Positions 9,162 to 24,367 of a stretch of DNA of 64,000 nt are shown here, piece after piece; position 1 is the first letter of the stretch, and each line of letters opens with the position of its first letter. The stretch comes from Bryobacter sp. (lineage in GTDB: Bacteria; Acidobacteriota; Terriglobia; Bryobacterales; Bryobacteraceae). The notes beneath the pieces were generated by a model. The model saw nothing but the letters and a program-made list of their open reading frames with translations. It had not been told where the DNA came from and ran no database searches. The stretch spans positions 62,001 through 126,000 of the forward strand of contig JALHNH010000005.1 of assembly GCA_022843625.1 (NCBI GenBank), read 5' to 3'. The position numbers and the translations under genes are program-made.

Positions 9162-12100
9162 ATGCTCTTTGGCCTAATTGTTGGATTTTCCTGGGTAGCT
9201 TGGATGGCTCTTGGCTGGTTCCTGCCCGAGTGGATTGGCATCAAAGGCAATGATGCCTGGTTTGTCAGGGGTCTCTTCTGGCTCATCGGCACTGCCTTTG
9301 CCGGCTTCCTCGTGTATTGGAAGATCACCTCTGACCGCAAGAAAAAAGCCTTGGCCCTCGCCGGCGAACAAGGCGCTGAACTCGATTTCGTCCTTGCCGA
9401 AGCCGACAAAAAACTTCAGGCCTCCGGTGGCAGCCTCGCCACCATGCCAGTCGTCTTTGTGATGGGTGCCCGTGGTTCTGCCAAAACAACCCTGATCACC
9501 AATAGCGGTCTCGAGCCTGAACTGCTCGCGGGTCTCGTCTACCAGGAAGGCAATCAGCTGGTTCAAACCAGGACCGCAAACGTCTGGCTTGCCAGAAAGA
9601 CCGTCTTCGTCGAAGCTGCTCCCACCTTGCTGGAAAACGACAAACTCTGGAAAGCCTTCTCGCAACGTTTCGCCCCTTCTGGCATGACCGCCCTTAAGGC
9701 AAGCTCTACCCCGGCCCCGCGCAGCGTGCTCATGTTTGTCGGTACCGAAGAATTCTTCCAGCAGGGTGCCGGTGAGATGATGACCGCCAAAGCCCGTATC
9801 CTCAACCAGCGTCTGATTGAGATGTCCAAAACTCTCGGGGCCCGCATTCCCGTTTATGTCATCTTCACCAAGGCAGATCAGATGCCTAATTTCGCCAACT
9901 ACGTCTCCTACATGAGCAACGACGAAGTCGCCGAAGTTCTTGGCGCTACCGTTCCCATCGTCGACATGGCTTCCACCGGTGTTTATGCCGAACAGGCCGG
10001 CAAACGTTTTGGCGATCTCATGGAAGAACTCTTCCGCAGCCTTGCTGAGCGCCGCGTCCCCCTGCAGGAGCGTGATGCCAACCAGCAGGGTCGCCCGCCC
10101 GTCTACGAATTCCCTCGTGAGTTCCGCAAATTAAGGCAAGCCGTCACCACCTTTCTGGTCGACATCTGTCGCCCCAGCCAGATCGCCGTCTCGCCCTTCG
10201 TCCGTGGCTTCTACTTCTCGGGCGTCCGCCCGGTTCTGGTCTCCGATGCAGCCGGCACTCAGCGCCGCATGCCGCAATGGCTTTTCATTAACCGCTTTTT
10301 CAGCGACGTTCTCCTTAAAGACAAAGCCGCCCTCGGCGCATCCAGCGTCAGCACCCGCACAGACGGCACCAGACGTCTCCTGCTTGGTGTCGCAGGTGCC
10401 CTCGGCCTGATCGCAACCGGCCTCTTCACCTGGAGTTACTTCAACAATCGCGCTCTCGAATCGGAACTCGCCGAAGCTTCCAAAGCCCTGCGCGGCGTCC
10501 AGGTTGCCCAGGGTGAAGTCCCCACCCTCGATAGCCTCAACAAGCTCGACCGCCTGCGCGGCGTTCTCGAGCGGCTCCGTGGCTACCAGAAAGAAGGCGC
10601 TCCTCTGATGATGCGCTGGGGCCTCTACACCGGCGACACTTTGCTTCCCACCTCACGCAAGCTCTACTTCGAGAGCTTCCGTAACGTCATGTTCGGCGAG
10701 ACCCAGACGGCCGTCCTCGACTACATGAAGCGCCTTCCTCAGGCCCCAACTCCTCAGGACGATTACATGACCAGCTACAACGCCCTCAAGGCCTACCTGA
10801 TCACCACTTCCAATCCTGACAAGAGCACCAAGACTTTTCTCACTCCTGTCCTGATGAAGTACTGGCAGGGTGTAAAACAGGTCGAGCCGCAGCGCTATGG
10901 GCTTGTCGGCAAGCAATTCGATTTCTACGCCGAAGAGCTCAAAGAATCCAACCCCTTCTCCAAAGAAAACGACGCCGTCACGGTAGACCGCACCCGCGTC
11001 TTCCTGAAGCAGTTCTCAGGCGACGAGCGCCTCTACAACGCAATTCTCGCCGAAGCCAATCGTGCCAACCCCACCATCAACTACAACAAGCTGTATCCCG
11101 ATGGCTACAAGGCCGTAAAGGTCGACAAAGAAGTCCAGGGCTCTTTCTCAAAAGAAGGTTTCGCCTGGATGCAGGCCGCCTTCAAGAACCTTCCGAAGTA
11201 CTTCGGTGGTGAAGCCTGGGTCCTGGGCGAAGAAGTAAAAATGAGCGTCAACTTGAGTGAACTCGAACAACGCCTGCGCGCCCGCTATTTCAAAGACTAT
11301 TCCGATCAATGGAAGGCTTACCTCAAGAGTGTCACCGTCCTGCGTTACGCCACCCTCAGAGACGCCTCCGAAAAATTGAAGATGCATTCCAGCAATCAGA
11401 GCCCACTCCTGGCTGCTGTCTATTTGGCTTCAAAGCATACCGACGTTGCGGAAAAATCTATCTCCGAACAATTTCAACCCACCCAATTGCTGGTTGCTCC
11501 CTCAAGTGCCGGTCAGCTGATAGGCGGAGAAAATCAGCCTTACATGGGCGGCTTGCTGCAACTCCAGGGTTCAATCGAAATGATCGCCGGAATGCCAGCC
11601 AGTCAGGCAGCCCAGGACCCTGCTGCCGCCCAAAGCCTCAACCAGGCCACAACCGCCAAGCTGACTGCTCGTAACGTAGCCCAAAAGTTCCGTCCCGACC
11701 CTCTCGACAAAGTCGATGCTCAGGTCCTCAAGATTATGGAAGACCCCATCACTTATGTCGAAGGCTTCCTGCGCGGTCTTGGCCCCGCAGAGATGAACGG
11801 CGCAGGCGCCGGCTTCTGCAAGCAGTTCTCCGATCTGATTTCAAAGTATCCCTTCAATCCCAACTCCAAGAATCAGGCCACAATCACGGAGTTTAATGGT
11901 ATTTTCGCTCCTCAAACGGGAGCTCTCTGGACCTTCTACGACACCAAACTCAAGCAGATGCTGGTCAATCAGGGCGGCGAATACCGCGCCGTTCCCACAC
12001 AGTCGATGGCGCTCACTCCAACCTTTGTTGCCGCATTCAATCGCTTTGCCGCCGTCACTTCTACGGCTTACGGATTGAATCCAAGCCCCAACTTTAAGTA

Positions 12101-12497
12101 CTCCGTGAAACTGAATCCGGAAATGAAGCGTGAAGTAAAACTGTCCATCGATGGCCAGAGCGCAGAGTTCAAGAACGCCTCCACTCCTGCCAAACCCTTC
12201 GTCTGGAATGGCCAGGGCGTTGGCGTCCGCACCACCATCGTTGGCGGCGGCACGGTCAGCTTCGACGGCCCGCTTGGTGTGTTTCAATGGTTCAACGATG
12301 CGGAACGCTGGAATCAAAACTCGGCCACTTCTCACACCGTCCTCTGGTATCAGCGCTCTGGGACGAAGATCATGACTGATGATCAAGGCAAGCCATTGTC
12401 GATGACGCTCGATCTCGATATGGCCATTCCGCTCTTCCGGAAAGGATACTTGGCCGGGTTGCAGTGCACCAGCAACGTGGCCCGCTCTGGCAACTGA
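9162..12497 (+). CDS. tssM: Type VI secretion system membrane protein TssM (IcmF family)
   Basis: 1111 aa; N-terminal TMs, Walker A GARGSAKTTLI, IcmF body, third TM at LLLGVAGALGLIATGLFTWSYF. Confidence 0.94.
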   Translation: MLFGLIVGFSWVAWMALGWFLPEWIGIKGNDAWFVRGLFWLIGTAFAGFLVYWKITSDRKKKALALAGEQGAELDFVLAEADKKLQASGGSLATMPVVFVMGARGSAKTTLITNSGLEPELLAGLVYQEGNQLVQTRTANVWLARKTVFVEAAPTLLENDKLWKAFSQRFAPSGMTALKASSTPAPRSVLMFVGTEEFFQQGAGEMMTAKARILNQRLIEMSKTLGARIPVYVIFTKADQMPNFANYVSYMSNDEVAEVLGATVPIVDMASTGVYAEQAGKRFGDLMEELFRSLAERRVPLQERDANQQGRPPVYEFPREFRKLRQAVTTFLVDICRPSQIAVSPFVRGFYFSGVRPVLVSDAAGTQRRMPQWLFINRFFSDVLLKDKAALGASSVSTRTDGTRRLLLGVAGALGLIATGLFTWSYFNNRALESELAEASKALRGVQVAQGEVPTLDSLNKLDRLRGVLERLRGYQKEGAPLMMRWGLYTGDTLLPTSRKLYFESFRNVMFGETQTAVLDYMKRLPQAPTPQDDYMTSYNALKAYLITTSNPDKSTKTFLTPVLMKYWQGVKQVEPQRYGLVGKQFDFYAEELKESNPFSKENDAVTVDRTRVFLKQFSGDERLYNAILAEANRANPTINYNKLYPDGYKAVKVDKEVQGSFSKEGFAWMQAAFKNLPKYFGGEAWVLGEEVKMSVNLSELEQRLRARYFKDYSDQWKAYLKSVTVLRYATLRDASEKLKMHSSNQSPLLAAVYLASKHTDVAEKSISEQFQPTQLLVAPSSAGQLIGGENQPYMGGLLQLQGSIEMIAGMPASQAAQDPAAAQSLNQATTAKLTARNVAQKFRPDPLDKVDAQVLKIMEDPITYVEGFLRGLGPAEMNGAGAGFCKQFSDLISKYPFNPNSKNQATITEFNGIFAPQTGALWTFYDTKLKQMLVNQGGEYRAVPTQSMALTPTFVAAFNRFAAVTSTAYGLNPSPNFKYSVKLNPEMKREVKLSIDGQSAEFKNASTPAKPFVWNGQGVGVRTTIVGGGTVSFDGPLGVFQWFNDAERWNQNSATSHTVLWYQRSGTKIMTDDQGKPLSMTLDLDMAIPLFRKGYLAGLQCTSNVARSGN

Positions 12498-14194
12498 TGC
12501 AACAACAGCAGCTTGGCAAGTACAAGTTCGAACAATTCCTCGGTGGAGGCATGTCGCACGTCTACAAAGCGCGCGACACCCTCATCAACCGCATCGTTGT
12601 TGTCAAAATCCTCACCGACAGCGGTATGCATGACGAGGATACGAAAAAGCGGTTCTTGCGTGAAGCCCAGACCGCTGGTGCGATTTCTCACGAAAACATC
12701 ATCCGCGTTTACGACTTCGGTGAACACGAAGGTCGCCCCTACATGGTCATGGAATACCTGCAGGGCAACGACCTCCGTGCCTCTATTCAAAAAGCACAAC
12801 TGCCCGGCGTGCTTGAAAAACTTCGTGTGCTCGTTCAGCTTGCCCGGGGCATGAAGCACATCCACGGCCTCGGAATCATCCACCGCGATCTCAAGCCCGA
12901 CAACGTCTTCATGAGCGATACCGGCGAAGTAAAGCTCATGGATTTCGGTATCGCCAAGACCAAAGATCTTTCTATCACTCGCACCGGCTACACCCTTGGC
13001 ACGCCGTACTACATGGCACCAGAACAGGTGATGTCCAAAGATGTCGGGGATCGCGCCGACATTTACGCCTACGGCATTTTGATGTTCGAACTCTTTACCG
13101 GAGTGAAGCCATTCCGGGCCGAAAACGTTCACGAAGTCTTTTTCAAGATCCTGAATGAGCCGCTCGATGCAACTCCACTGGTTGAGGCCAGCGTACCCAC
13201 TCACGTTGTGGATCTGATCAAACAGTGCACTGAGAAAGACCAAACCAAACGCCCTGAGAATTTCGGCATCGTCATTCAGGAACTCGAAGCGGTTCTCAAA
13301 ACGATGGAAACCGGCGATGTCGAAACCATCACCCAGCTCACCAAACCACGAACTGAAATCCCCAGGATCGCCTGGATCGGTGGTGCCGCCGCCCTGGGCC
13401 TCATCATCCTCCTTTTGATCTTCAACTTGATGCCGCGCGGTGAAAATAAGGACGACGCCAAAAAGCAGGGGCAAGCTGTTGCTGTCATCGAACTCCCACC
13501 AACATTGAAAACCTCGACGGGTGAAATGCTTCTTGTAAAAGAAGGTGACTTTCTCTTCGGCGAAGCCAATGAAAAGCGCGCGCAGAAGGCGTTCTACATC
13601 GACAAATTCGAAGTTACCAACGAAATATATAAGAAATTTGCCATGGAGCGTGGCTGGCCCCTCCCCGTGGGATTTCCAGACGATGATGCATCCAAAAAAC
13701 TCCCAGTTGTGAATGTCTCGTTTGACGATGCGCGTGAATTTGCTACTTGGGCCGGCAAGCGAATTCCTTACGCCGTCGAATGGGAAAAAGCCGCACGCGG
13801 CTCGCAAGGCCGCACCTATCCCTGGGGTTATGAACACCTTCCAGAACTCGCCGTAGTCGAAGACAACCCCAGGCTCAAAGGCATCAAAGGACCCAAGCCC
13901 GTAGGCAGCTTCCAGAGCGCCGACAGTATCTATGGGGCCCTCGATCTTGCCGGCAACGTTTTCGAGTGGGTCGATGAGCGCACCAAGCCAAGCCTACCCG
14001 CAGTGAAGATGTTCTCAACCTTGATGAAGCCGCCGCCTTCGGAAAACGACCTCTGGATGCAGATCCGCGGTGGCAGTTTCTTCCGGCCTCTCCTGCCCAA
14101 CGTAAGCGTCCAGATGGCAAGCGTTCCCGCCGCCTACAAGACTTCCGACATCGGTTTCCGCTGCGTAACCGATCCCGGCACCAAGCCAAAGTAG
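12497..14194 (+). CDS. Ser/Thr protein kinase - TM - formylglycine-generating-enzyme (SUMF1)-like fusion
   Basis: Kinase motifs VVVKIL, HRDLKPDN, DFGIAKTK, APE; TM IAWIGGAAALGLIILLLIF; FGE-like FYIDKFEVTNEIYKKF...LAGNVFEWV...RGGSFF...GFRCV; start overlaps tssM stop (TGATG). Confidence 0.93.
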   Translation: MQQQQLGKYKFEQFLGGGMSHVYKARDTLINRIVVVKILTDSGMHDEDTKKRFLREAQTAGAISHENIIRVYDFGEHEGRPYMVMEYLQGNDLRASIQKAQLPGVLEKLRVLVQLARGMKHIHGLGIIHRDLKPDNVFMSDTGEVKLMDFGIAKTKDLSITRTGYTLGTPYYMAPEQVMSKDVGDRADIYAYGILMFELFTGVKPFRAENVHEVFFKILNEPLDATPLVEASVPTHVVDLIKQCTEKDQTKRPENFGIVIQELEAVLKTMETGDVETITQLTKPRTEIPRIAWIGGAAALGLIILLLIFNLMPRGENKDDAKKQGQAVAVIELPPTLKTSTGEMLLVKEGDFLFGEANEKRAQKAFYIDKFEVTNEIYKKFAMERGWPLPVGFPDDDASKKLPVVNVSFDDAREFATWAGKRIPYAVEWEKAARGSQGRTYPWGYEHLPELAVVEDNPRLKGIKGPKPVGSFQSADSIYGALDLAGNVFEWVDERTKPSLPAVKMFSTLMKPPPSENDLWMQIRGGSFFRPLLPNVSVQMASVPAAYKTSDIGFRCVTDPGTKPK

Positions 14195-14316: not shown

Positions 14317-15366
14317 ATGAGTATCCTCGACAACCTAAAAAGTTTTGCAGCAAAACAATTTATTGACGTAATCAACTACGTCGAACCAGAAGACGGCATC
14401 CTCAGCTATCGCTACCCGATGCAGGACATGGAAATCCAGAACGGTGCGAAATTAACCGTTCGGGAAAGCCAGATGGCCGCTTTCATCAATGAAGGGCAGG
14501 TCGCCGATGTGTTCGGCCCGGGGCTCCATACCCTGGGTACGCAAACGCTCCCGATCCTGACCAACCTCAGAAACTGGGACAAGATGTTTCAGTCGCCATT
14601 CAAAAGCGACGTGTACTTCTTCTCGTCTCGAACCCAAACGAACCAGCGTTGGGGCACCACCCAGCCTGTCACCATTCGTGACAAGGATTTTGGTATGGTG
14701 CGCCTACGTTGCTTCGGAATCTATTCCTGGCACGTCTCGGACCCGCGCACTTTCCACGCCAAGATTTCCGGCACACGCGATCTCTATCGCGTAGCTGAAA
14801 TCGAAGGCCAACTGCGCAATTCGATCGTTGCCCACATCTCCGACGCCTTTGCCCAGTCCGGGATCCCTTTCCTCGACATGGCCGCAAACCAGATCGAAGT
14901 GGGCAAGGCGATGATGGCCACCCTCCAGCCAGACTTCGCGGCCATTGGCCTGACTCTCGACACAATGATCGTCGAGAACTTGAGCCTCCCTGAAGAGCTG
15001 CAGAAGCTGCTCGACGAGCGCATCGGTATGAACATGATCGGCAACATGGCTCAGTACACGCAGTACAAGACCGCTCAATCGATCCCGATCGCTGCCGCCA
15101 ACGAAGGTGGCCTCGCCGGTATCGGAGCCAGTCTCACGGCCGGTATGGGCATGGCCAGCCAGATGGCCGGTGCCTTCCAGCAGGCCATGCAGCCGCAGGC
15201 TCCTCCTCCACAAGCCCCGCCTCCGGTAGCTCCGGTCGCAGCGGCCGCTGTGGGAATCGGCGCCGTCCTCGCAGGCGACACAAAGTTTTGCATGAACTGC
15301 GGTGCCAAAATCGCCAAGGCCGCCAAGTTCTGCACAGAGTGCGGCTTCAAGCAACCAGAAGCCTAA
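14317..15366 (+). CDS. SPFH-domain (virion core protein/YdjI-like) protein with C-terminal zinc ribbon
   Basis: N-terminal SPFH-like sequence (GAKLTVRESQMAAFINEGQVADVFGPGLHTLGTQTLPILT); C-terminal CMNCGAKIAKAAKFCTECG. Confidence 0.88.
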   Translation: MSILDNLKSFAAKQFIDVINYVEPEDGILSYRYPMQDMEIQNGAKLTVRESQMAAFINEGQVADVFGPGLHTLGTQTLPILTNLRNWDKMFQSPFKSDVYFFSSRTQTNQRWGTTQPVTIRDKDFGMVRLRCFGIYSWHVSDPRTFHAKISGTRDLYRVAEIEGQLRNSIVAHISDAFAQSGIPFLDMAANQIEVGKAMMATLQPDFAAIGLTLDTMIVENLSLPEELQKLLDERIGMNMIGNMAQYTQYKTAQSIPIAAANEGGLAGIGASLTAGMGMASQMAGAFQQAMQPQAPPPQAPPPVAPVAAAAVGIGAVLAGDTKFCMNCGAKIAKAAKFCTECGFKQPEA

Positions 15367-15367
15367 A

Positions 15368-15727
15368 ATGACCGGTTGCGAATGGGTGATTGAGGCGCAC
15401 GGGTGTAGTCCCGGGCGCCTCGCTCACCTCGACTCTCTCCAACAACTTTTCGATATGCTCGTTCGCGAGATGGACCTTCATCCCGTCCAACCCGCTCAAT
15501 GGCATCAGTTCCCACCCACCCCGACAACAGAGGGCGGGATTACTGGCCTGCTCCTGCTGAGCGAAAGCCACCTCGCTTGCCACACCTTCCCGGAATTTCA
15601 ATCTATTTGCTTAAATGTCTTTTGTTGCCGGCCCAGACCGGAGTATGATTTCAAAGCGGCTCTTGAATCCATCCTTGACGCCGGCAATGTTACTGTACGT
15701 AAACTGGAAAGACCCTACAGCGCATGA
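15368..15727 (+). CDS. speH: S-adenosylmethionine decarboxylase proenzyme
   Basis: Pyruvoyl processing motif LLSESHLACHTFPEF with following VFCC; Ser (ES-H), His and Cys of class 1B AdoMetDC retained; ATGA overlap with next gene. Confidence 0.9.
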   Translation: MTGCEWVIEAHGCSPGRLAHLDSLQQLFDMLVREMDLHPVQPAQWHQFPPTPTTEGGITGLLLLSESHLACHTFPEFQSICLNVFCCRPRPEYDFKAALESILDAGNVTVRKLERPYSA

Positions 15728-16356
15728 CTCAGGTAGCCTCAAATTGTCCCCAATGTGGTGCCCCCGTTGTATTCCGTTATGCACAGGCGGTTCAGACCAC
15801 CTGCCCTTATTGCAGCAGTATCCTGGTTCGCACCGATGTCGATCTTGAAAAGGTCGGCGAAGTCTCCAGCTATCCCAACGACCCCAGCCCGATCATGATC
15901 GGCACCGAGGGGATCTTTGAAAACAAACCTTTTGTCGTTGTTGGCCGCATCTGCTACGAATACGAAAACGGCGGTTGGAACGAATGGCATATCGTCTACA
16001 GCAACGGTGAATCCGGCTGGATGTCGGACGCTCAACTCCAGTACACCGTCACTAAGCTGATTCCTTTTCCCCAGAGTCTCTACGGCATCAAGCTCGACCC
16101 CGGTACGATGGTTGACGTCAACAGCGTCTTCTACACTGTCACCACCGTCACCAACGCTAACTACCGTGCCGTTGAAGGCGAACTCCCCTTTCAGTTCTGG
16201 GATAAGACCGTCTGCCGCTTCGTCGATCTCCGCACCTCCGATGCACGTTTCCTTACCATCGACTTCACTGAAGAACCTGCCTTGATCTTCTCGGGTCGCA
16301 GCGTCGGCTTTGACGATCTCAAACTCAAAAACCTCCGTCAATTCGAGGGTTGGTAA
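15724..16356 (+). CDS. DUF4178 protein with N-terminal zinc ribbon
   Basis: CPQCGAPVVFRYAQAVQTTCPYCSS then DUF4178-like FENKPFVVVGRICYEYENGGWNEWHI. Confidence 0.82.
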   Translation: MTQVASNCPQCGAPVVFRYAQAVQTTCPYCSSILVRTDVDLEKVGEVSSYPNDPSPIMIGTEGIFENKPFVVVGRICYEYENGGWNEWHIVYSNGESGWMSDAQLQYTVTKLIPFPQSLYGIKLDPGTMVDVNSVFYTVTTVTNANYRAVEGELPFQFWDKTVCRFVDLRTSDARFLTIDFTEEPALIFSGRSVGFDDLKLKNLRQFEGW

Positions 16357-16359
16357 ATC

Positions 16360-17700
16360 ATGGCCGCACAACGTCCTCAACCGAAAATTCGCGCTTTCAA
16401 CTGCCCAAACTGTGGCAGCACAGTAGAATTGCGCGCGATGGGTTCCAGCCTGAGTGCAACTTGTGCCAGTTGCCTCTCTCTGCTTGACGTCTCAGACCAG
16501 CGCGTCCAGATCATCCAGCGCTTCAACAAGAAAACAGAGCGCTTCACTCCCAAAATTCCTCTCGGCACACGCGGCAAGTTCGATGGTCAACCCTACGAAG
16601 TCACCGGCTTCCAGCGCCGCGCCATCATGGCCGATGGCACAGAATACACTTGGGACGAATACGTCCTTTACAACCCCTTCCGCGGCTTCCGCTACCTCAC
16701 TGAATACGCAGGCCACTGGAACGATGTAATCCCCGTCACCGCTCTGCCGGCCCCAGACGACATGATGGGCCATGCGGCCGTCAAATACCAGGACCGCAAA
16801 TACAAACTCTTTCAGTCTGCTACACCCAAAACGAAATTCGTCCTCGGGGAATTCCCCTGGCGCGTTCGACTCAACGACCAGGTTACGACTCGCGATTTCG
16901 TCGATCCCCCCTACTCCCTGGCTTCCGAAAGCGACAGCAACGAAACCACCTGGAGTAAAGCAAAGTACATCACTGGTAAAGAAGTCTGGGCGAACTTCCA
17001 GCTCAAAGGTTCTCCCCCTGGCGCTGATGGCGTCTACTCGAATCAGCCCAATCCCTACGGCTCCACCAAACCCATGTGGGCAATGATGGTCGTCTTCAGT
17101 GTATTGCTGCTACTGACCATGATCATCACCTCCTTCATGGCCTCGGGAGACACCGTTTTCCAGTCCAGATATTACTTCGTACCTGGCGCTGGTGAACCCA
17201 GCTTCGTTACTCCCACCTTCGACTTGAAGGGCGGCGAAAAAAACGTCGAAGTTGAAATCAGAACCGACCTCCAGAACGACTGGATGTATCTCGGCCTCGC
17301 GCTTATCAACGAGCAGACCGGAGTCGCCTACGACTTCGGCAAAGAAGTCAGCTACTACTCCGGCACTGACTCCGACGGAAGCTGGACCGAAGGCGACAAA
17401 GCCGACTCCGTCAGCATCGGCGGCGTTCCCGGCGGCAAATACTATCTTCGTGTCGAACCCGACATGGAGAAAGGCCTTGCTTCCCCCATCCTCGGCGGCA
17501 AGCGTGTCAACTACGAAATCAAATTGCGCCGCGATGTAGCCGTCATCTGGCCCTACTTCGTAGTCTGGCCATTTCTCTTGATTCCCCCACTCTGGGCCAT
17601 GATTCGCCGCTACGGTTTTGAAGGCAAACGCTGGGCAGAATCTGACCCGTCCGGCGGCGCTGCAAGCTATTCATCGGAGGACGAAGAAGATGATGAGTAA
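16360..17700 (+). CDS. DUF4178 protein with N-terminal zinc ribbon and two TM helices
   Basis: CPNCGSTVELRAMGSSLSATCASC; FDGQPYEVTGFQRRAIMADGTEYTWDEYVLY; TMs near MWAMMVVFSVLLLLTMIITSFM and VIWPYFVVWPFLLIPPLWAM. Confidence 0.85.
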   Translation: MAAQRPQPKIRAFNCPNCGSTVELRAMGSSLSATCASCLSLLDVSDQRVQIIQRFNKKTERFTPKIPLGTRGKFDGQPYEVTGFQRRAIMADGTEYTWDEYVLYNPFRGFRYLTEYAGHWNDVIPVTALPAPDDMMGHAAVKYQDRKYKLFQSATPKTKFVLGEFPWRVRLNDQVTTRDFVDPPYSLASESDSNETTWSKAKYITGKEVWANFQLKGSPPGADGVYSNQPNPYGSTKPMWAMMVVFSVLLLLTMIITSFMASGDTVFQSRYYFVPGAGEPSFVTPTFDLKGGEKNVEVEIRTDLQNDWMYLGLALINEQTGVAYDFGKEVSYYSGTDSDGSWTEGDKADSVSIGGVPGGKYYLRVEPDMEKGLASPILGGKRVNYEIKLRRDVAVIWPYFVVWPFLLIPPLWAMIRRYGFEGKRWAESDPSGGAASYSSEDEEDDE

Positions 17701-17875
17701 ATTCTACGGAGGCTACGGCCTCATTCTCACCCTGTTTTCCGGCTATCTCGGCTACAAGGGTTTCATGTTCAATCAGGGAGACGAAGTCCGCAACGTTCCT
17801 CGCAGCGTCCGTGACAATCCCGGTTCTTATCGATCCATCTATTCCAACTACCACCGCTATACCGGAGGCAAATAA
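17690..17875 (+). CDS. Small membrane protein (61-62 aa) in SPFH/DUF4178/DUF350 operon
   Basis: MMSKFYGGYGLILTLFSGYLGYKGFMFNQGDEVRNVP...; GGAGG upstream; overlaps the preceding stop. Confidence 0.72.
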   Translation: MMSKFYGGYGLILTLFSGYLGYKGFMFNQGDEVRNVPRSVRDNPGSYRSIYSNYHRYTGGK

Positions 17876-17879
17876 CACT

Positions 17880-18092
17880 ATGAACGGTTTTCACATCGGA
17901 GCGTTTTTTAACGCTTTTATCTACGCGATGCTCGGCATCATCATCTTTGTTGTCAGTTTCATCATTGCCGACAGACTCACTCCTCACCACCTATGGGGTG
18001 AAATTGTCGAAGGCAAAAATATGGCCCTCGCCATCATGGTCGGCTTCATGAGCCTCGGCGTCTGCATCATCATCGCCGCCGCGGTTCACTAA
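17880..18092 (+). CDS. DUF350 (YjfL-like) membrane protein
   Basis: 70 aa, two TM helices, FIIADRLTPHHLWGEIVEGKNMALAIMVGFMSLGVCIIIAAAVH. Confidence 0.85.
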   Translation: MNGFHIGAFFNAFIYAMLGIIIFVVSFIIADRLTPHHLWGEIVEGKNMALAIMVGFMSLGVCIIIAAAVH

Positions 18093-18095
18093 GCG

Positions 18096-19592
18096 ATGGC
18101 TGTAGCCTTATTTCTATCCGTACTCCTGATTGCTGCCTGCGGCCTCATCTATGAGCTGATCGCAGGCACTCTTGCCAGCTACCTGCTCGGAGATAGCATC
18201 CTTCAGTTCTCAACCGTAATCGGCAGCTACCTCTTTGCCATGGGCATCGGCAGTTGGCTCAGCCGTTTTATCAACAAAGGCCTGGTCGCCCGCTTCATCA
18301 CCATCGAACTCATGGTCGGATTGGTCGGCGGCTTCTCCAGTTCCATCCTCTTCCTCGCCTTCGCCTACACCCAGGCCTTCCGCTTTATCCTCTACCTGCT
18401 GGTAGTCGTCGTAGGCATTCTCGTGGGCCTCGAAATCCCTCTCCTGATGCGAATCCTCAAAGATCGCTTCCAGTTTCGTGATCTCGTCGCTAACGTCCTC
18501 ACCTTCGACTACCTCGGCGCTCTTGGTGCCTCGCTGCTCTTCCCGCTTGTGCTCGTTCCCAAACTCGGCCTCGTTCGCGGCGCTCTTCTCTTCGGCATGC
18601 TCAACGCAGGTGTCGCCCTCTGGTCCACATGGCTGTTCAAATCACAACTTCCCAGCTACAACGGCCTCCGCGCAGCTTCATTCCTGGTCCTTGCTGCTCT
18701 AACCGGAGGACTCTTCAGTTCAGACTTCATCATGGCCGCAGCCGACGATAATCTCTACTCGGACGAGATCATCCTGAGCCGTCAAACCAAATACCAGCGC
18801 ATCGTCCTCACCCGCTGGAAAGACGACGTCCGCCTCTACTTAAGCTCCCACCTCCAGTTCGCATCCAACGACGAATACCGCTACCACGAAGGCCTTGTTC
18901 ACCCCGTCCTCGCCGCCCTTCCCAATGCCAGAAACGTCCTCATCCTCGGCGGTGGCGACGGCCTTGCCGCGCGCGAAGTCCTCAAATACAAAAACATCGA
19001 ACGTCTCACACTAGTCGATCTCGACCCTGAGATGACCCAGCTCTTCGCCACCCACTCCTATCTCAAGCAACTCAACGGGGGCTCCCTCACCGACAAGCGC
19101 ATGCGCGTCATCAACGCCGACGCCTTCGTCTGGCTCGAACAATCCAAAGAGATCTTCGACGCCGTCATCATCGACTTCCCTGACCCTACCAATTTCTCTC
19201 TCGGCAAGCTCTACTCAACAGCCTTTTATCGTCTCCTCGGCCACCACATCGCCGAATCCGGCTACATAGTCGTACAAAGCACCAGCCCTCTCTTCGCAAG
19301 ACAATCCTATTGGTGCATCGTAGAAACCCTCAAAGCTGCGAAGTTCCAGACCAAGCCCTATCACGTCTACGTGCCCAGCTTCGGAGAATGGGGTTTCATC
19401 ATCGCCGGACGCAACCAGTGGCAAGCCCCAACTTCTCTCCCCACAGGTCTCCGCTTCCTCACCCTCACCAACCTCGCCACCCTCTTTGACTTCCCTCTCG
19501 ACATGCAATCCATGCCAGCCGAAGTCAATCGCCTCAACGACCAGGCCCTCGTCCGATACTACGAAGAGGACTGGAAGAAGCTGACTCACTAA
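18096..19592 (+). CDS. Membrane-embedded spermidine synthase-like aminopropyltransferase
   Basis: N-terminal multi-TM; SpeE-like NVLILGGGDGLAAREVLKYKNIERLTLVDLDPEM...FDAVIIDFPDPTNFSLGKLYS. Confidence 0.92.
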   Translation: MAVALFLSVLLIAACGLIYELIAGTLASYLLGDSILQFSTVIGSYLFAMGIGSWLSRFINKGLVARFITIELMVGLVGGFSSSILFLAFAYTQAFRFILYLLVVVVGILVGLEIPLLMRILKDRFQFRDLVANVLTFDYLGALGASLLFPLVLVPKLGLVRGALLFGMLNAGVALWSTWLFKSQLPSYNGLRAASFLVLAALTGGLFSSDFIMAAADDNLYSDEIILSRQTKYQRIVLTRWKDDVRLYLSSHLQFASNDEYRYHEGLVHPVLAALPNARNVLILGGGDGLAAREVLKYKNIERLTLVDLDPEMTQLFATHSYLKQLNGGSLTDKRMRVINADAFVWLEQSKEIFDAVIIDFPDPTNFSLGKLYSTAFYRLLGHHIAESGYIVVQSTSPLFARQSYWCIVETLKAAKFQTKPYHVYVPSFGEWGFIIAGRNQWQAPTSLPTGLRFLTLTNLATLFDFPLDMQSMPAEVNRLNDQALVRYYEEDWKKLTH

Positions 19593-19607: not shown

Positions 19608-20909
19608 TCAAAACTGCCCGACAAAGAGCATCCCTGCTCCCACCCCATACGAGTTTGCCGGCCTTGCCCTCCGCGTAAGTTCAGCCTCAATCTGGGTCAC
19701 TGTCCAAATGGGATTCACTTGCTTGAGTAAACTGATCGCTCCGGCTACCAGCGGCGTGCTGAACGATGTCCCCCACGCACTCGCGTAATTACCCCCGGGA
19801 TACGCCACGATCAAGCCTTCGCCAGGCGCGGCAAGCGTCACAAGCAGCGGCCCATAATTGGAAAAACCACTCCGTACCGAGAACTCATCCAGCGAAGCGA
19901 TACCTTTTACCTGCGGATAAGCTGCCGGGTAAACCATAATCTCATTCCCATCGTTTCCTGCGGATGCCACAAGCACTACTTTGCGCGCAGCGGCGTACCG
20001 GATGGATCGTTCCAGTTCAAACGAGTTCTCCTTCATGTTGAAACTCATATTAATGATCGAAGCCCCGTTGTCAGCGGCATAATAAATGGCCCGGATCAGG
20101 TCAAACGTATTTGAAGAACCATCTGCCTGAAACGCCTTCAGCGGCATGATCTTCGCTGCCGGTGCAACCAGCCTCACCAGGGAAGCCACCATCGTGCCAT
20201 GACCGAATGCTTGCGGCAGTTTGCCGGTATCGATGAAGGCGGTAGTCGATTGTGTCAATGCCGCGTACGAGTAATGATTTAGCGGAACTGCGCTCGTCGA
20301 GTTATCGATAAATGCAGTGGTCGATTGCGTCAGTGCAGACTTTACCCCGGCATCTACAGCGCTCCACTCTGTGGGAACACCCGCAGTATCTGCTGTAAAA
20401 TCATAACCGCTAACCAAAGAGCCCGTTAGCGCTGGATGGCTTGCATCGACGCCCGTATCAATTACTGCAACAATCCCGGCTCCGGTCCGCGACTTGAGTT
20501 GAGCTTGCCTCAACCCGATTTGGCTGGCAGCCGGCTGCTCCGTATAGCCTTGCCAGGCATTCGCTCCGTAGTAATTGACAATTCTTCGCCCCAGCAGGGC
20601 TTTTTGTAAGGAGTCCTCACTTGGGCTGGTGGACCCGGACTTCACCTCAGGTGCAAATAACTCTTCATTCTTCTCTACCGATATGACGTCACGGTCTCCC
20701 GCTACATTGTCTTCAAAATTGTCATCGTCCAGCGGCTTTACCAGATACAAATTTTTCGCAGGCAATGACTTTTTGACTTCCAGTCGGTACCGGGTAACTA
20801 CTCGTCCCAATGCCCCGGGCGCGGGTCTCAACAAATACTCATCGTCGTCGTCGGCCTGCAAGCTCAGGGCCGCAAACAGGGAAAGTAGGATTAAAATAAT
20901 GTTTTTCAT
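19608..20909 (-). CDS. Secreted S8 (subtilisin-like) serine protease
   Basis: Signal peptide MKNIILILLSLFAALSLQA; triad VIDTGVD, GHGTMVA, GTSFSTPLVAG. Confidence 0.94.
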   Translation of the reverse strand: MKNIILILLSLFAALSLQADDDDEYLLRPAPGALGRVVTRYRLEVKKSLPAKNLYLVKPLDDDNFEDNVAGDRDVISVEKNEELFAPEVKSGSTSPSEDSLQKALLGRRIVNYYGANAWQGYTEQPAASQIGLRQAQLKSRTGAGIVAVIDTGVDASHPALTGSLVSGYDFTADTAGVPTEWSAVDAGVKSALTQSTTAFIDNSTSAVPLNHYSYAALTQSTTAFIDTGKLPQAFGHGTMVASLVRLVAPAAKIMPLKAFQADGSSNTFDLIRAIYYAADNGASIINMSFNMKENSFELERSIRYAAARKVVLVASAGNDGNEIMVYPAAYPQVKGIASLDEFSVRSGFSNYGPLLVTLAAPGEGLIVAYPGGNYASAWGTSFSTPLVAGAISLLKQVNPIWTVTQIEAELTRRARPANSYGVGAGMLFVGQF

Positions 20910-20917
20910 GGTGTCTT

Positions 20918-21574
20918 TTAGCGATCCGTTTCGTCTGGGGTCCGTTTCATTTTTTTTGCGCTAGCTGGTACTAAATCCAATTCAATCCGTTTCTCCGGGT
21001 TTTCTACTAGAAGTACCAGCTTCAATGGCTCTCCTTTTGAGAACTCCATTTGGAATTCGCCGTTCTCTCCTGTGATGGTCCGGGCAATCATCTTTTCCCC
21101 CTGATACACATAAACAGGCCTCTTCGAGACGGGTCCAATCGCTCCCAATTCGTTTGACAACTGTCCTACCACCGCCATCACTTCTGTCTCGCCTTCCTGT
21201 TCCATTCTCAGGCTCACAAGGAAATTGCCAGCCATATAGGTTGTTTCTCGAATGAGAGTTTCGGTGGCCCGCACACCCGCCAACTGAGGTTCCAGCATAC
21301 TGTCGAAGATCAATCGAATCTCCGAAAGTGGAATCCGTGATACCGCCTTGTATTGACCTTGCTCAAAAATCGAGAAGGCGCGTTCCAGAACCCCGCTTGG
21401 CGGTTCTGTCTTACCCAACACCTGAGCTGCTTCTGTCATCAAGCTGGCACTTTGGAACAAACGTTGGCTTCCTTCACACCCCTCTTCCAAAAGCTTTTGC
21501 ATCTCAGCTTTACGCTCTTTGCTGGCTACCCCGCGCGCGTAATCAACCCAATCTTCTATTTTGAATCGCTTCAT
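20918..21574 (-). CDS. Anti-sigma-like/zf-HC2-like N-terminus with degenerate Zn ligands and C-terminal beta-sandwich-like region; no TM seen
   Basis: WVDYARGVASKERKAEMQKLLEEGCEGSQRLF resembles zf-HC2 layout without the His/second Cys; located between CHAT and subtilase genes. Confidence 0.55.
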   Translation of the reverse strand: MKRFKIEDWVDYARGVASKERKAEMQKLLEEGCEGSQRLFQSASLMTEAAQVLGKTEPPSGVLERAFSIFEQGQYKAVSRIPLSEIRLIFDSMLEPQLAGVRATETLIRETTYMAGNFLVSLRMEQEGETEVMAVVGQLSNELGAIGPVSKRPVYVYQGEKMIARTITGENGEFQMEFSKGEPLKLVLLVENPEKRIELDLVPASAKKMKRTPDETDR

Positions 21575-21652
21575 TGTTCTTGATTTCCTGCCACCTAATC
21601 CTCAAGTGCCTTATAACTGGGTAAAAAATATATAGCGAGTGAATTATTTTCA

Positions 21653-24367
21653 CTATTTTCGTAAGTCCACCTTTCCATGCCACCCCACCAGGTTGAAAGG
21701 TGCCCAGAAGAATGGATGCGCATACGCTTGGCGAATTTGCCCTTGTGCAGCTTTCACCGCCACACCCAGCGTTGCCCCAGACAGGACTTCCCCATAAAAC
21801 ACTTTCATAAACTGCGTGGTACTCTCATCGTTAACATTCCATAACGACACCAGAGCCGCTCGGGCTCCTGCATGCAGTAGCCCTCGCACCAGTCCTACGG
21901 GTTCGTCCCCACCCATCACAACGCCAAGTCCCGTACTGCAGCCGCTCAGCACCACTAGTTCCAGGTTGGTTCGTAGTTCATGAAGATCATAAAGACTGAG
22001 CTGTCCATCTCCCATCAGCAAAGATGAAAACCAGGGGTTGTCCCTGCGAAATTGACCATGCGTTGCAATGTGTAAATGGGAAGCTGTTCGGCTGGCCTCA
22101 CGCAGCCGGGCAATCGTTGCCGCCTCGTCCAGGTAAAGCCGTGATCCATCCATCAGCTTGGATACCAGCTCTGCCTCAGTTCGTATCTGCGGCGCTAATC
22201 GATCGGCCACCCCAAAGACGGCTGAACCCGTTCCAGCCTCCACTCTCTCTTCGAGGGATCGAAGATAATGACCGGCGCTAGGGGCAACCGAAACCGTATA
22301 TCGTTCGCCCAGATAATTCACCCCATCGTGCAAGGCCCCAAATGGCAGCCAGTGAAGCGGACCGTGTGGAACAAAAACACAGTGCTCCGGCCCCAGCACG
22401 TCCTCAATCGGTGCGATCAAGGCTTCATACAGCTTCTGAAGATGATTCAATACATGCCCCAGCGCTGTCTGTCTTTGTTGCCCGGCTTCTGGCAACCGGC
22501 AAACCCGCCCCATTTGAAACTGCACAAACCGAAGCAGTTCCACCACACGCCCCATCTCTCCCAGCCGCGTGATTCGTGCGTCTCCATTTCCAATCGTGAT
22601 CGCAAAAAAGTTAGCTCCCGCCCGGTAATACTCCACCAGGCAAGTCCTCGGCTGCAGTGCCTTCTTCACTTCGGGCAGGGTCGCCGTCAGTCGTTCACTC
22701 AGGCCCGCTGAATCCGTCAATCGGGAGATTGCCTCGCGCAACCCGGCTTCGGCCGCATGGATTCGCTGACGAATCTGAGCCGATGCTTTTGCTGACCCTT
22801 CGCTTTGCCCTGTTTCGATCCCCTCCAGTTGATGTCGCAACATCTTCAATTGATCCCGCCACACCCCTGTCTCCGCATTCCAACTTGGTCGCAAGCTCGG
22901 CTTCGGCGCTGCCACCATTTCCACACTTCGTGATTTGGATCGCTCTGCAGTCTGAAAGGCTTCCTCAGTTTTCTCTTCACCGGCCAGAATCAGGAAGTGC
23001 GCTTCATAGGATGCCGTCTTGTCGGCAAAATAAGAGATTCGCAGGTCTTCAGAGCCCAGCCGGTCACGCAAAGCCTCATAAGCGGCCTGTGCGCTTGAGT
23101 ACAAATCAAGGGCCTCCCGCCGATTGCCTTCAGACTCTTCGATCTGCGCCATTAAGCTCGCAGTGTGTCCTGCCAGCATGGGCGATTGAGAATACGGCTG
23201 TAGCCGTAAAGCCGCATTCGCGTGACCCCGCGCACTCACCGTTTTCCCCTGTTCCAGATCTAGCCGCGCCAGCAGCAATCGACACTGAATTGCCTTTCCC
23301 GGCAATACCGTTTGCGAGAAGAAACCAAGTCCCCGCAACGCCTTCACCCTTGCCGGCGCTCGCGATCCTGCTCGCTCCAGCAGCAGTCCTGCATACAAAT
23401 CAATCAATGCCGGCCACACTGCATTCTTCTCCACTTGAAAGCTGCGCCGTGCACCCGCCAGTTGCCGCAAGCCCTTGGCCAGCGCTCCCTTTTTTCCGAA
23501 ACACAAACCCAGAAAAACCTGCGCCTTCGCTGCTTCGTAATTCATCCCCAGCCCGCGAAAGCCTCGCTTCGCCCTTGCCGCCATCGCCTCGGCATCGCTC
23601 CATAGATTCAGCTCCAGATACATCTCTGCCTGATCCAGATCACACAGTGCCTCATGATAGGCGTCCCCGGCTTCTTTGGCCTCACTTCTGGCAGACTCAT
23701 AAAGCAGCCTCGCTTCGAGATAATCTCCCCGCAAAAAATGCAGATAGGCTATGTTGTAATCGGCCTCGGCCACCAGCTTCGTCAACCCATGCGTCAGACA
23801 CAATGTCCGCGCAGCGGCATGGGTTTCCAGGGCATCTTCAAAGCGGCTCAGACTCAGTTGGCACACCCCCTTGTTGCGCATCACTGCTGCAATATCCCGC
23901 GCTTCCCCGTGTTGCCGGAACTGTGCCTCCACTTCCTGGTACAGCGCAATCGCTTCCTCAAAGCGATCCTGGCGATAGAGCAGATTCGCCAGATTGCCGT
24001 TCAGTCGCGCCAGACGCGTACGCTCCCCCAGTTTTTCGAACACCGCCTTCGCCCGTGTTGCCCACTCGAGGGCTTCGTCATAACGCGACAGGTAGATCAG
24101 GGTTTGCATCGCATTGCTGCGCGTGCGTGCCTCTTCCATTTCATCGCCTGTTGCCGCGAAGCAGGCAATTGCTGCTTCAAATTGTTCCAGCGCTTCTTCA
24201 TATCTCGTTTTCGCCCATAAAACGATCCCCATGCATCGCGTCGCTTGCCCTCGGTCACGCTCGTCCCGGCTCAGCCCAATCGCCTGCTCGGCCAACCGGC
24301 TCGCTGCCTCCAGGTCCGAGCGCACCAGCAGCGTCGCTTCCTCACACAATGCTTCAACTTTGCTCAC
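21653..24367 (-). CDS. TPR-CHAT protein (caspase-like protease)
   Basis: N-terminal TPRs; C-terminal CHAT with HLHIATHGQF and LVVLSGCSTGLG His/Cys dyad; starts inside the sigma gene stop (ATGA). Confidence 0.92.
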   Translation of the reverse strand: MSKVEALCEEATLLVRSDLEAASRLAEQAIGLSRDERDRGQATRCMGIVLWAKTRYEEALEQFEAAIACFAATGDEMEEARTRSNAMQTLIYLSRYDEALEWATRAKAVFEKLGERTRLARLNGNLANLLYRQDRFEEAIALYQEVEAQFRQHGEARDIAAVMRNKGVCQLSLSRFEDALETHAAARTLCLTHGLTKLVAEADYNIAYLHFLRGDYLEARLLYESARSEAKEAGDAYHEALCDLDQAEMYLELNLWSDAEAMAARAKRGFRGLGMNYEAAKAQVFLGLCFGKKGALAKGLRQLAGARRSFQVEKNAVWPALIDLYAGLLLERAGSRAPARVKALRGLGFFSQTVLPGKAIQCRLLLARLDLEQGKTVSARGHANAALRLQPYSQSPMLAGHTASLMAQIEESEGNRREALDLYSSAQAAYEALRDRLGSEDLRISYFADKTASYEAHFLILAGEEKTEEAFQTAERSKSRSVEMVAAPKPSLRPSWNAETGVWRDQLKMLRHQLEGIETGQSEGSAKASAQIRQRIHAAEAGLREAISRLTDSAGLSERLTATLPEVKKALQPRTCLVEYYRAGANFFAITIGNGDARITRLGEMGRVVELLRFVQFQMGRVCRLPEAGQQRQTALGHVLNHLQKLYEALIAPIEDVLGPEHCVFVPHGPLHWLPFGALHDGVNYLGERYTVSVAPSAGHYLRSLEERVEAGTGSAVFGVADRLAPQIRTEAELVSKLMDGSRLYLDEAATIARLREASRTASHLHIATHGQFRRDNPWFSSLLMGDGQLSLYDLHELRTNLELVVLSGCSTGLGVVMGGDEPVGLVRGLLHAGARAALVSLWNVNDESTTQFMKVFYGEVLSGATLGVAVKAAQGQIRQAYAHPFFWAPFNLVGWHGKVDLRK

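Follow-up and report, generated by a model that had tools for sequence, protein, structure and literature searches.

A lysine-tailed companion protein as candidate acceptor of a membrane aminopropyltransferase in Bryobacter

The question

Clusters that combine an S-adenosylmethionine (AdoMet) decarboxylase with a membrane aminopropyltransferase (mAPT) are widespread, and ever since they were reported not to make spermidine, it has been asked what accepts the aminopropyl group. One such cluster occupies positions 14317-19592 of the window, the stretch of 64,000 nucleotides from a Bryobacter sp. contig that was analysed here. What does its transferase modify? A lysine at the very end of an overlooked companion protein points to a specific candidate: in our judgement there is an even chance that mAPT aminopropylates this residue, a deoxyhypusine-like modification of the envelope for which both acceptor and topology are predicted. 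The operon type is already known, and the form with an SPFH protein and a lysine-tailed micropeptide is a variant of it. Its features are:

14317..15366, + strand: SPFH/band-7 protein with a C-terminal zinc ribbon (PF13421, Band_7_1; Pfam 249.8 bits)
15368..15727, + strand: AdoMet decarboxylase, class 1b, 119 aa (PF02675, 72.3 bits, cut-off 25)
15724..16356, + strand: DUF4178 protein a, with a zinc ribbon (PF13785, 56 bits)
16360..17700, + strand: DUF4178 protein b, zinc ribbon and DUF4178 followed by two transmembrane segments, read from the sequence, around a beta-rich stretch (PF13785, 67.6 bits)
17690..17875, + strand: Lys-tail protein with a single transmembrane segment, 61 aa, C-terminus ...HRYTGGK; candidate acceptor
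17870..17872, + strand: AAA codon of the invariant C-terminal lysine of the Lys-tail protein
17880..18092, + strand: DUF350 membrane protein, a short 70-aa form with two transmembrane segments (PF03994, 50.6 bits)
18096..19592, + strand: mAPT, a seven-transmembrane (7-TM) domain fused to a spermidine-synthase-fold domain (NF002956, 685 bits)

Neighbouring genes are separated by 1 to 4 bp or overlap slightly, so that the seven genes read as a single operon. All of them lie where an earlier, sequence-only reading had put them, and the tight seven-gene operon (SPFH, AdoMet decarboxylase, two DUF4178 proteins, small transmembrane protein, DUF350, mAPT) is confirmed. Four details of that reading are corrected: the decarboxylase most likely starts at the ATG at 15368, DUF350 is of the short type with 70 aa, the gene of the small transmembrane protein spans 17690-17875, and the transferase has seven transmembrane helices. 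The genome (7.8 Mb) carries one copy each of AdoMet decarboxylase and DUF350 and is close to Bryobacter (L055-L057, 85-90% identity in the transferase).

An invariant terminal lysine

The small transmembrane protein has no match to any Pfam or NCBIfam model, and the sequence-only reading missed it as the likely acceptor. Alignment of its homologues revealed an invariant C-terminal lysine. Lysine is the last residue in 113/113 companion proteins adjoining mAPT or its DUF4178 partner, and in every one left after redundancy filtering (33/33 at 40% identity, 45/45 at 50%, 77/77 at 70%); the penultimate residue is Gly in 89, His in 23 and Val in 1. Most tails were selected by hidden Markov model, position or hydrophobicity. 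Where the model failed, a short hydrophobic open reading frame between DUF4178 and DUF350/mAPT was picked by position and hydrophobicity, and these frames likewise end in lysine. Among 95 tails the lysine codon is AAA in 53 and AAG in 42, and all three stop codons occur; since both codons and all stops are used, the signal acts at the protein level. A Shine-Dalgarno artefact, with GGAGG ahead of the DUF350 start giving 'GGK', was rejected because the codons, the stops and the spacing downstream all vary, and because some tails end in His-Lys. Several Lys-tails have no nearby downstream start codon.

Controls bear on a first rival, that the lysine is a sorting, insertion or stability signal of the anchored protein, independent of the enzyme's chemistry. 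The tail is basic and defined tails can be needed by membrane or exported proteins, but lysine ends just 5/430 other module proteins, membrane ones included, and the last residue stays unchanged across carriers of very different size, which makes this explanation highly improbable. Among other small hydrophobic open reading frames, 11/429 are Lys-ended.

The tail has three types of carrier: a single-TM micropeptide, a lipoprotein of ~190-510 aa, or a DUF4178 protein, at whose C-terminus it follows one transmembrane segment. The lipoproteins belong to distant gammaproteobacterial clusters of the PspA-CesT/Tir type (~190-370 aa, 510 aa in Alteromonas) and have a Ser/Arg/Gly-rich tail before the terminal lysine. 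A natural DUF4178 fusion (L173:4967-6493), with one transmembrane segment and then a C-terminal SGGSHK, offers a clue to topology, and in the split modules of other genomes the Lys-tail again adjoins DUF4178. Lipoprotein carriers with a C-terminal lysine resemble the layout of Lpp. The tail might then be a tether like Braun's lipoprotein, cross-linked to peptidoglycan through its lysine, while the aminopropyl chemistry targets something else or tunes the link. We regard this as very unlikely, given that single-TM carriers exist and the pairing with mAPT is strict; among the conserved neighbours, which were not searched systematically for one, no L,D-transpeptidase stood out.

Conservation and co-occurrence

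A protein search of 14.1 million contigs returned 419 relatives. The order SPFH, AdoMet decarboxylase, DUF4178, DUF4178, small transmembrane protein, DUF350, mAPT is kept in the sampled Acidobacteriota and Gemmatimonadota, with occasional deviations (the two DUF4178 domains fused; AdoMet decarboxylase or SPFH located elsewhere), and because it recurs in both phyla the neighbourhood is not due to chance. Most acidobacterial and gemmatimonad copies begin with SPFH as a conserved first gene. Several module variants have something else in its place or lack it, whereas the sequence-only reading had treated it as a fixed partner. Variants also occur in alpha-, beta- and gammaproteobacteria, and the variant replicons come from Ralstonia, Burkholderia, Novosphingobium, Tritonibacter, Ensifer, Alteromonas and Gemmatirosa. 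On Alteromonas plasmids, a TelA-family (toxic anion resistance) gene belongs to the module (L193:9530-10636). Plasmid matches in Rhodovulum (L194) and Bacillus thuringiensis (L196) were set aside as fragments or soluble enzymes.

Co-occurrence was surveyed in 297 Acidobacteriota genomes, 52 of them with mAPT. The aligned form of the small protein stands beside mAPT in 48 of the 52, at a distance of 224-1366 bp, and the other 4 have diverged Lys-tails; the 245 genomes without mAPT hold no credible match, and matches elsewhere, at E 1e-4 to 0.009, are weak and chance-like. AdoMet decarboxylase is present in 51/52 mAPT genomes and in 8/8 of a second set. The gene set thus recurs, in line with the neighbour conservation on which the sequence-only reading had staked its proposal. 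That a Lys-ended small membrane protein is nearly always in the operon argues for the lysine as the probable acceptor rather than for ordinary spermidine synthesis.

The two enzymes

Residues S67, H72 and C87 of the decarboxylase correspond to the pyruvoyl Ser, His and Cys of class 1b enzymes and are all intact, as first read, and alignment with operon homologues indicates that ESHLa.HTfPE and the CC site are retained. The protein lies under the TIGR03330 equivalog cut-off (54.4 bits vs 75.65), which its homologue in the Ralstonia module clears (111 vs 75.65). Neofunctionalised SpeD enzymes are known (PMC10407285). Production of decarboxylated AdoMet (dcAdoMet) is its putative function, supported by the intact active-site residues.

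The transferase matches NF002956 (PRK03612, membrane polyamine aminopropyltransferase) over residues 3-495, with 685 bits against a curated cut-off of 472, and Pfam Spermine_synth with 126 bits. Its 7-TM domain (residues 2-207) precedes the spermidine-synthase-fold domain (222-441) and a C-terminal extension. GGGDG falls at residues 285-289 and the AlphaFold model has seven transmembrane helices (mean pLDDT 88.5), so the description as a GGGDG aminopropyltransferase fused to multiple transmembrane segments was accurate. Foldseek groups the soluble domain with aminopropyltransferases. The modelled TM domain has no significant match in the PDB (best E 0.03); halves of major facilitator superfamily (MFS) proteins align with it weakly (TM-scores 0.5-0.59), and the score against NF037959 (fused MFS/spermidine synthase) is 24.6 bits, short of the cut-off of 40. 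On the donor side, YHE, GGGDG and DFPDP (donor site plus the catalytic Asp pair D-x-x-D-P) are invariant in 43 mAPT homologues. On the acceptor side, P-T-Y-P-S-G-x-W of the Bacillus subtilis spermidine synthase compares with P-S-F-G-E-W in mAPT, which is shorter and lacks the Tyr.

Could mAPT be an ordinary, membrane-tethered synthase of spermidine or another polyamine, perhaps one linked to export? It is the sole convincing speE-like gene of its genome, one of two marks by which the sequence-only reading would have recognised ordinary synthesis, but the other, an enzyme of soluble type, is absent. A second spermidine-synthase-like protein (804 aa, 25 bits) is not a credible SpeE, as GPGGGWD replaces GGGDG. 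The genome has a biosynthetic SpeA; a second PF02784 match (414 aa) reads like LysA, and no carboxyspermidine decarboxylase is among the PF02784 matches. The NCBIfam name of the family, polyamine aminopropyltransferase, also favours this explanation. It nevertheless seems quite unlikely: the score against the soluble SpeE equivalog TIGR00417 (132 bits) stays below the cut-off of 249.55, the acceptor motif is altered, the Lys-tail partner is near-obligatory, and homologous fusions are reported to have no part in spermidine/spermine synthesis (PMC12803844). The preference for envelope modification over bulk spermidine is supported by the conserved neighbours, the 7-TM fusion type and the TIGR00417 score; the modification itself is a prediction, and the idea had already been published. 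Overall, that interpretation is partly supported.

The substrate may instead be the head group of a membrane lipid or some small amine of the envelope, with the Lys-tail serving as scaffold, regulator or pseudo-substrate. The enzyme is membrane-embedded, conserved acidic residues line up in its TM domain (E20, D33, E71, E113, D138), and the literature leaves the acceptor open (PMC11237479). By itself this gives no reason for a constant terminal lysine across unrelated carriers, and we consider it unlikely.

Sidedness and the amine oxidase

With seven transmembrane helices, the N- and C-terminal ends of mAPT lie on opposite sides of the membrane. Lysine plus arginine values are 2.98, 3.53 and 1.95 in loops 2-3, 4-5 and 6-7 vs 0, 0.86 and 1.65 in the other loops; distant homologues follow the same trend, and several have basic N-terminal extensions. 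This charge bias, together with the basic extensions, predicts that the catalytic domain is probably extracytoplasmic. A cytosolic catalytic domain is made less likely by the odd helix number and the charge bias. In the lipoprotein and DUF4178-fusion carriers the Lys-tail also comes to lie outside. Of 97 loci, 57 (e.g. L189, L190, L127) have a flavin amine oxidase (PF01593) immediately downstream of mAPT, and 55 of these 57 oxidases have a twin-arginine motif. The Bryobacter genome has a 53% identical oxidase on another contig (C71), with a short, degenerate twin-arginine-like start.

Proposed mechanism

The decarboxylase, to judge by its intact active site, would produce dcAdoMet in the cytoplasm, and mAPT would bind it through the conserved donor site and catalytic aspartates. 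The enzyme may then move the 3-aminopropyl group onto the side-chain amine of the lysine that ends the neighbouring membrane-anchored protein. With its four-carbon amine side chain, lysine resembles putrescine, which makes a terminal lysine on a flexible tail a plausible acceptor; as it approximates a protein-borne putrescine/cadaverine, the modification would give a spermidine analogue attached to a protein, deoxyhypusine-like and one carbon shorter. DUF4178/DUF350 would organise the charged tail, which might work on the outward side of the membrane, with SPFH or PspA-CesT/Tir as a possible organiser on the inner side, and in many species the exported flavin amine oxidase may act further on the amine. 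Extracytoplasmic catalysis would need dcAdoMet to be carried across the membrane, possibly via the 7-TM half; the alternative is modification before export. Taken together, an extracytoplasmic counterpart of deoxyhypusination, in which dcAdoMet crosses the membrane, the terminal lysine of a micropeptide or lipoprotein is modified and an exported oxidase follows, is possible though doubtful as a whole.

Several points weigh against aminopropylation of the tail. Enzyme activity and modification are both predictions, and the conserved lysine could have another role. Genomes and loci are phylogenetically related, so the counts are not independent, and the tails of L191, L192, L263 and L264 were recognised partly by their terminal K. 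At locus L182 (genome G363), which has mAPT, no Lys-tail was found nearby, and G363 has no DUF4178 match. In the Bryobacter genome the oxidase is unlinked to the module. A catalytic domain outside would leave the supply of dcAdoMet unexplained; one inside would require lipoprotein tails to be modified before export, as must presumably also hold for the ATP-dependent ligases YjfC and YgiC discussed below.

Flanking genes

Just upstream (9162-14194) lie a type VI secretion TssM/IcmF gene and, following it, a gene that joins a Ser/Thr kinase to an FGE-sulfatase domain. A link to the module was rejected: close Bryobacter relatives (L055, L057) are the only ones among the sampled loci with this pair upstream, and it is therefore treated as local. 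A convergent cluster on the minus strand (19608-24367) encodes three proteins: a subtilase (S8), a protein of 218 aa that has no Pfam family, and a TPR-rich protein of 904 aa with a CHAT protease-like C-terminus (HIATHG...SGCSTG). A stress or conflict system built on proteases is one possible role.

Comparison with known systems

The predicted product is similar in kind to deoxyhypusine/hypusine on eIF5A, where a polyamine-like group likewise extends a lysine side chain. On eIF5A the group is an aminobutyl from spermidine, the enzyme is unrelated and the target is a cytosolic factor; no homology to mAPT is claimed. A literature search for aminopropyl-lysine found no report. If the proposal is correct, this post-translational modification, for which no report was found, would tie polyamine chemistry to the PspA, SPFH and DUF350 membrane stress systems.

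The clusters of Li, Kurihara, Kim, Liang and Michael (2019, Biochem J 476:2579) reportedly hold the same enzyme pair with DUF350. The window copy is set apart from these by SPFH, by its pair of DUF4178 proteins and by its short DUF350. PMC12803844 cites these AdoMet decarboxylase/MFS-spermidine synthase fusion/DUF350 clusters as fusions not taking part in spermidine/spermine synthesis, and PMC11237479 cites Li 2019 as an AdoMet decarboxylase linkage study. The strict pairing of the Lys-tail with mAPT is, as far as checked, unreported, Li 2019 lying outside that check.

That related neighbourhoods had been noted in comparative genomics, as stated in the sequence-only reading, is correct: Ravi 2024 describes operons of PspA-CesT/Tir with 7TM-spermidine synthase, DUF350, DUF4178 and the Ctha_1186 lipoprotein, and names polyamine monitoring and the aminopropylation of other substrates as possible functions (PMC11237479). 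The window copy shares 7TM-spermidine synthase, DUF350 and DUF4178 with them; with AdoMet decarboxylase it holds the module gene set of Li 2019/Ravi 2024. It differs in having AdoMet decarboxylase in the operon, a micropeptide instead of the lipoprotein, and SPFH in the place of the CesT/Tir-PspA dyad (Ravi group 2), of which there is no gene within 14317-19592. Loci L180, L181, L183 and L184 look like the Ravi 2024 type and their lipoprotein is also Lys-ended; lysine is unmentioned in the main text of that paper (PMC11237479).

In Escherichia coli, YjfL-YjfM-YjfC and YgiB-YgiC are peptide-spermidine ligase systems (Pederick 2023, as cited in PMC12270671). As in the module, DUF350 (YjfL) adjoins a membrane or exported protein with a Ser/Arg/Gly tail and a polyamine-transfer enzyme. 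Unlike in the module, the E. coli enzymes are ATP-grasp ligases acting on a carboxylate, and the tail ends in Gly-Gly, not Lys. The annotated ligases YjfC and YgiC adjoin DUF1190 proteins, YjfC also DUF350, and the DUF1190 proteins YjfM, YgiB and three relatives all (5/5) end in Gly-Gly after an RGGFG-type Ser/Arg/Gly tail (L198:88-726; L269:1-416; L266; L267; L268). This end is a possible substrate signature of the ligases. The ends of the tails agree with the chemistry: a carboxylate for the ligase, an amine for the aminopropyltransferase. Lys tails here and Gly-Gly tails beside the ligases suggest a general theme in which envelope proteins carry polyamine caps at their C-terminal tails.

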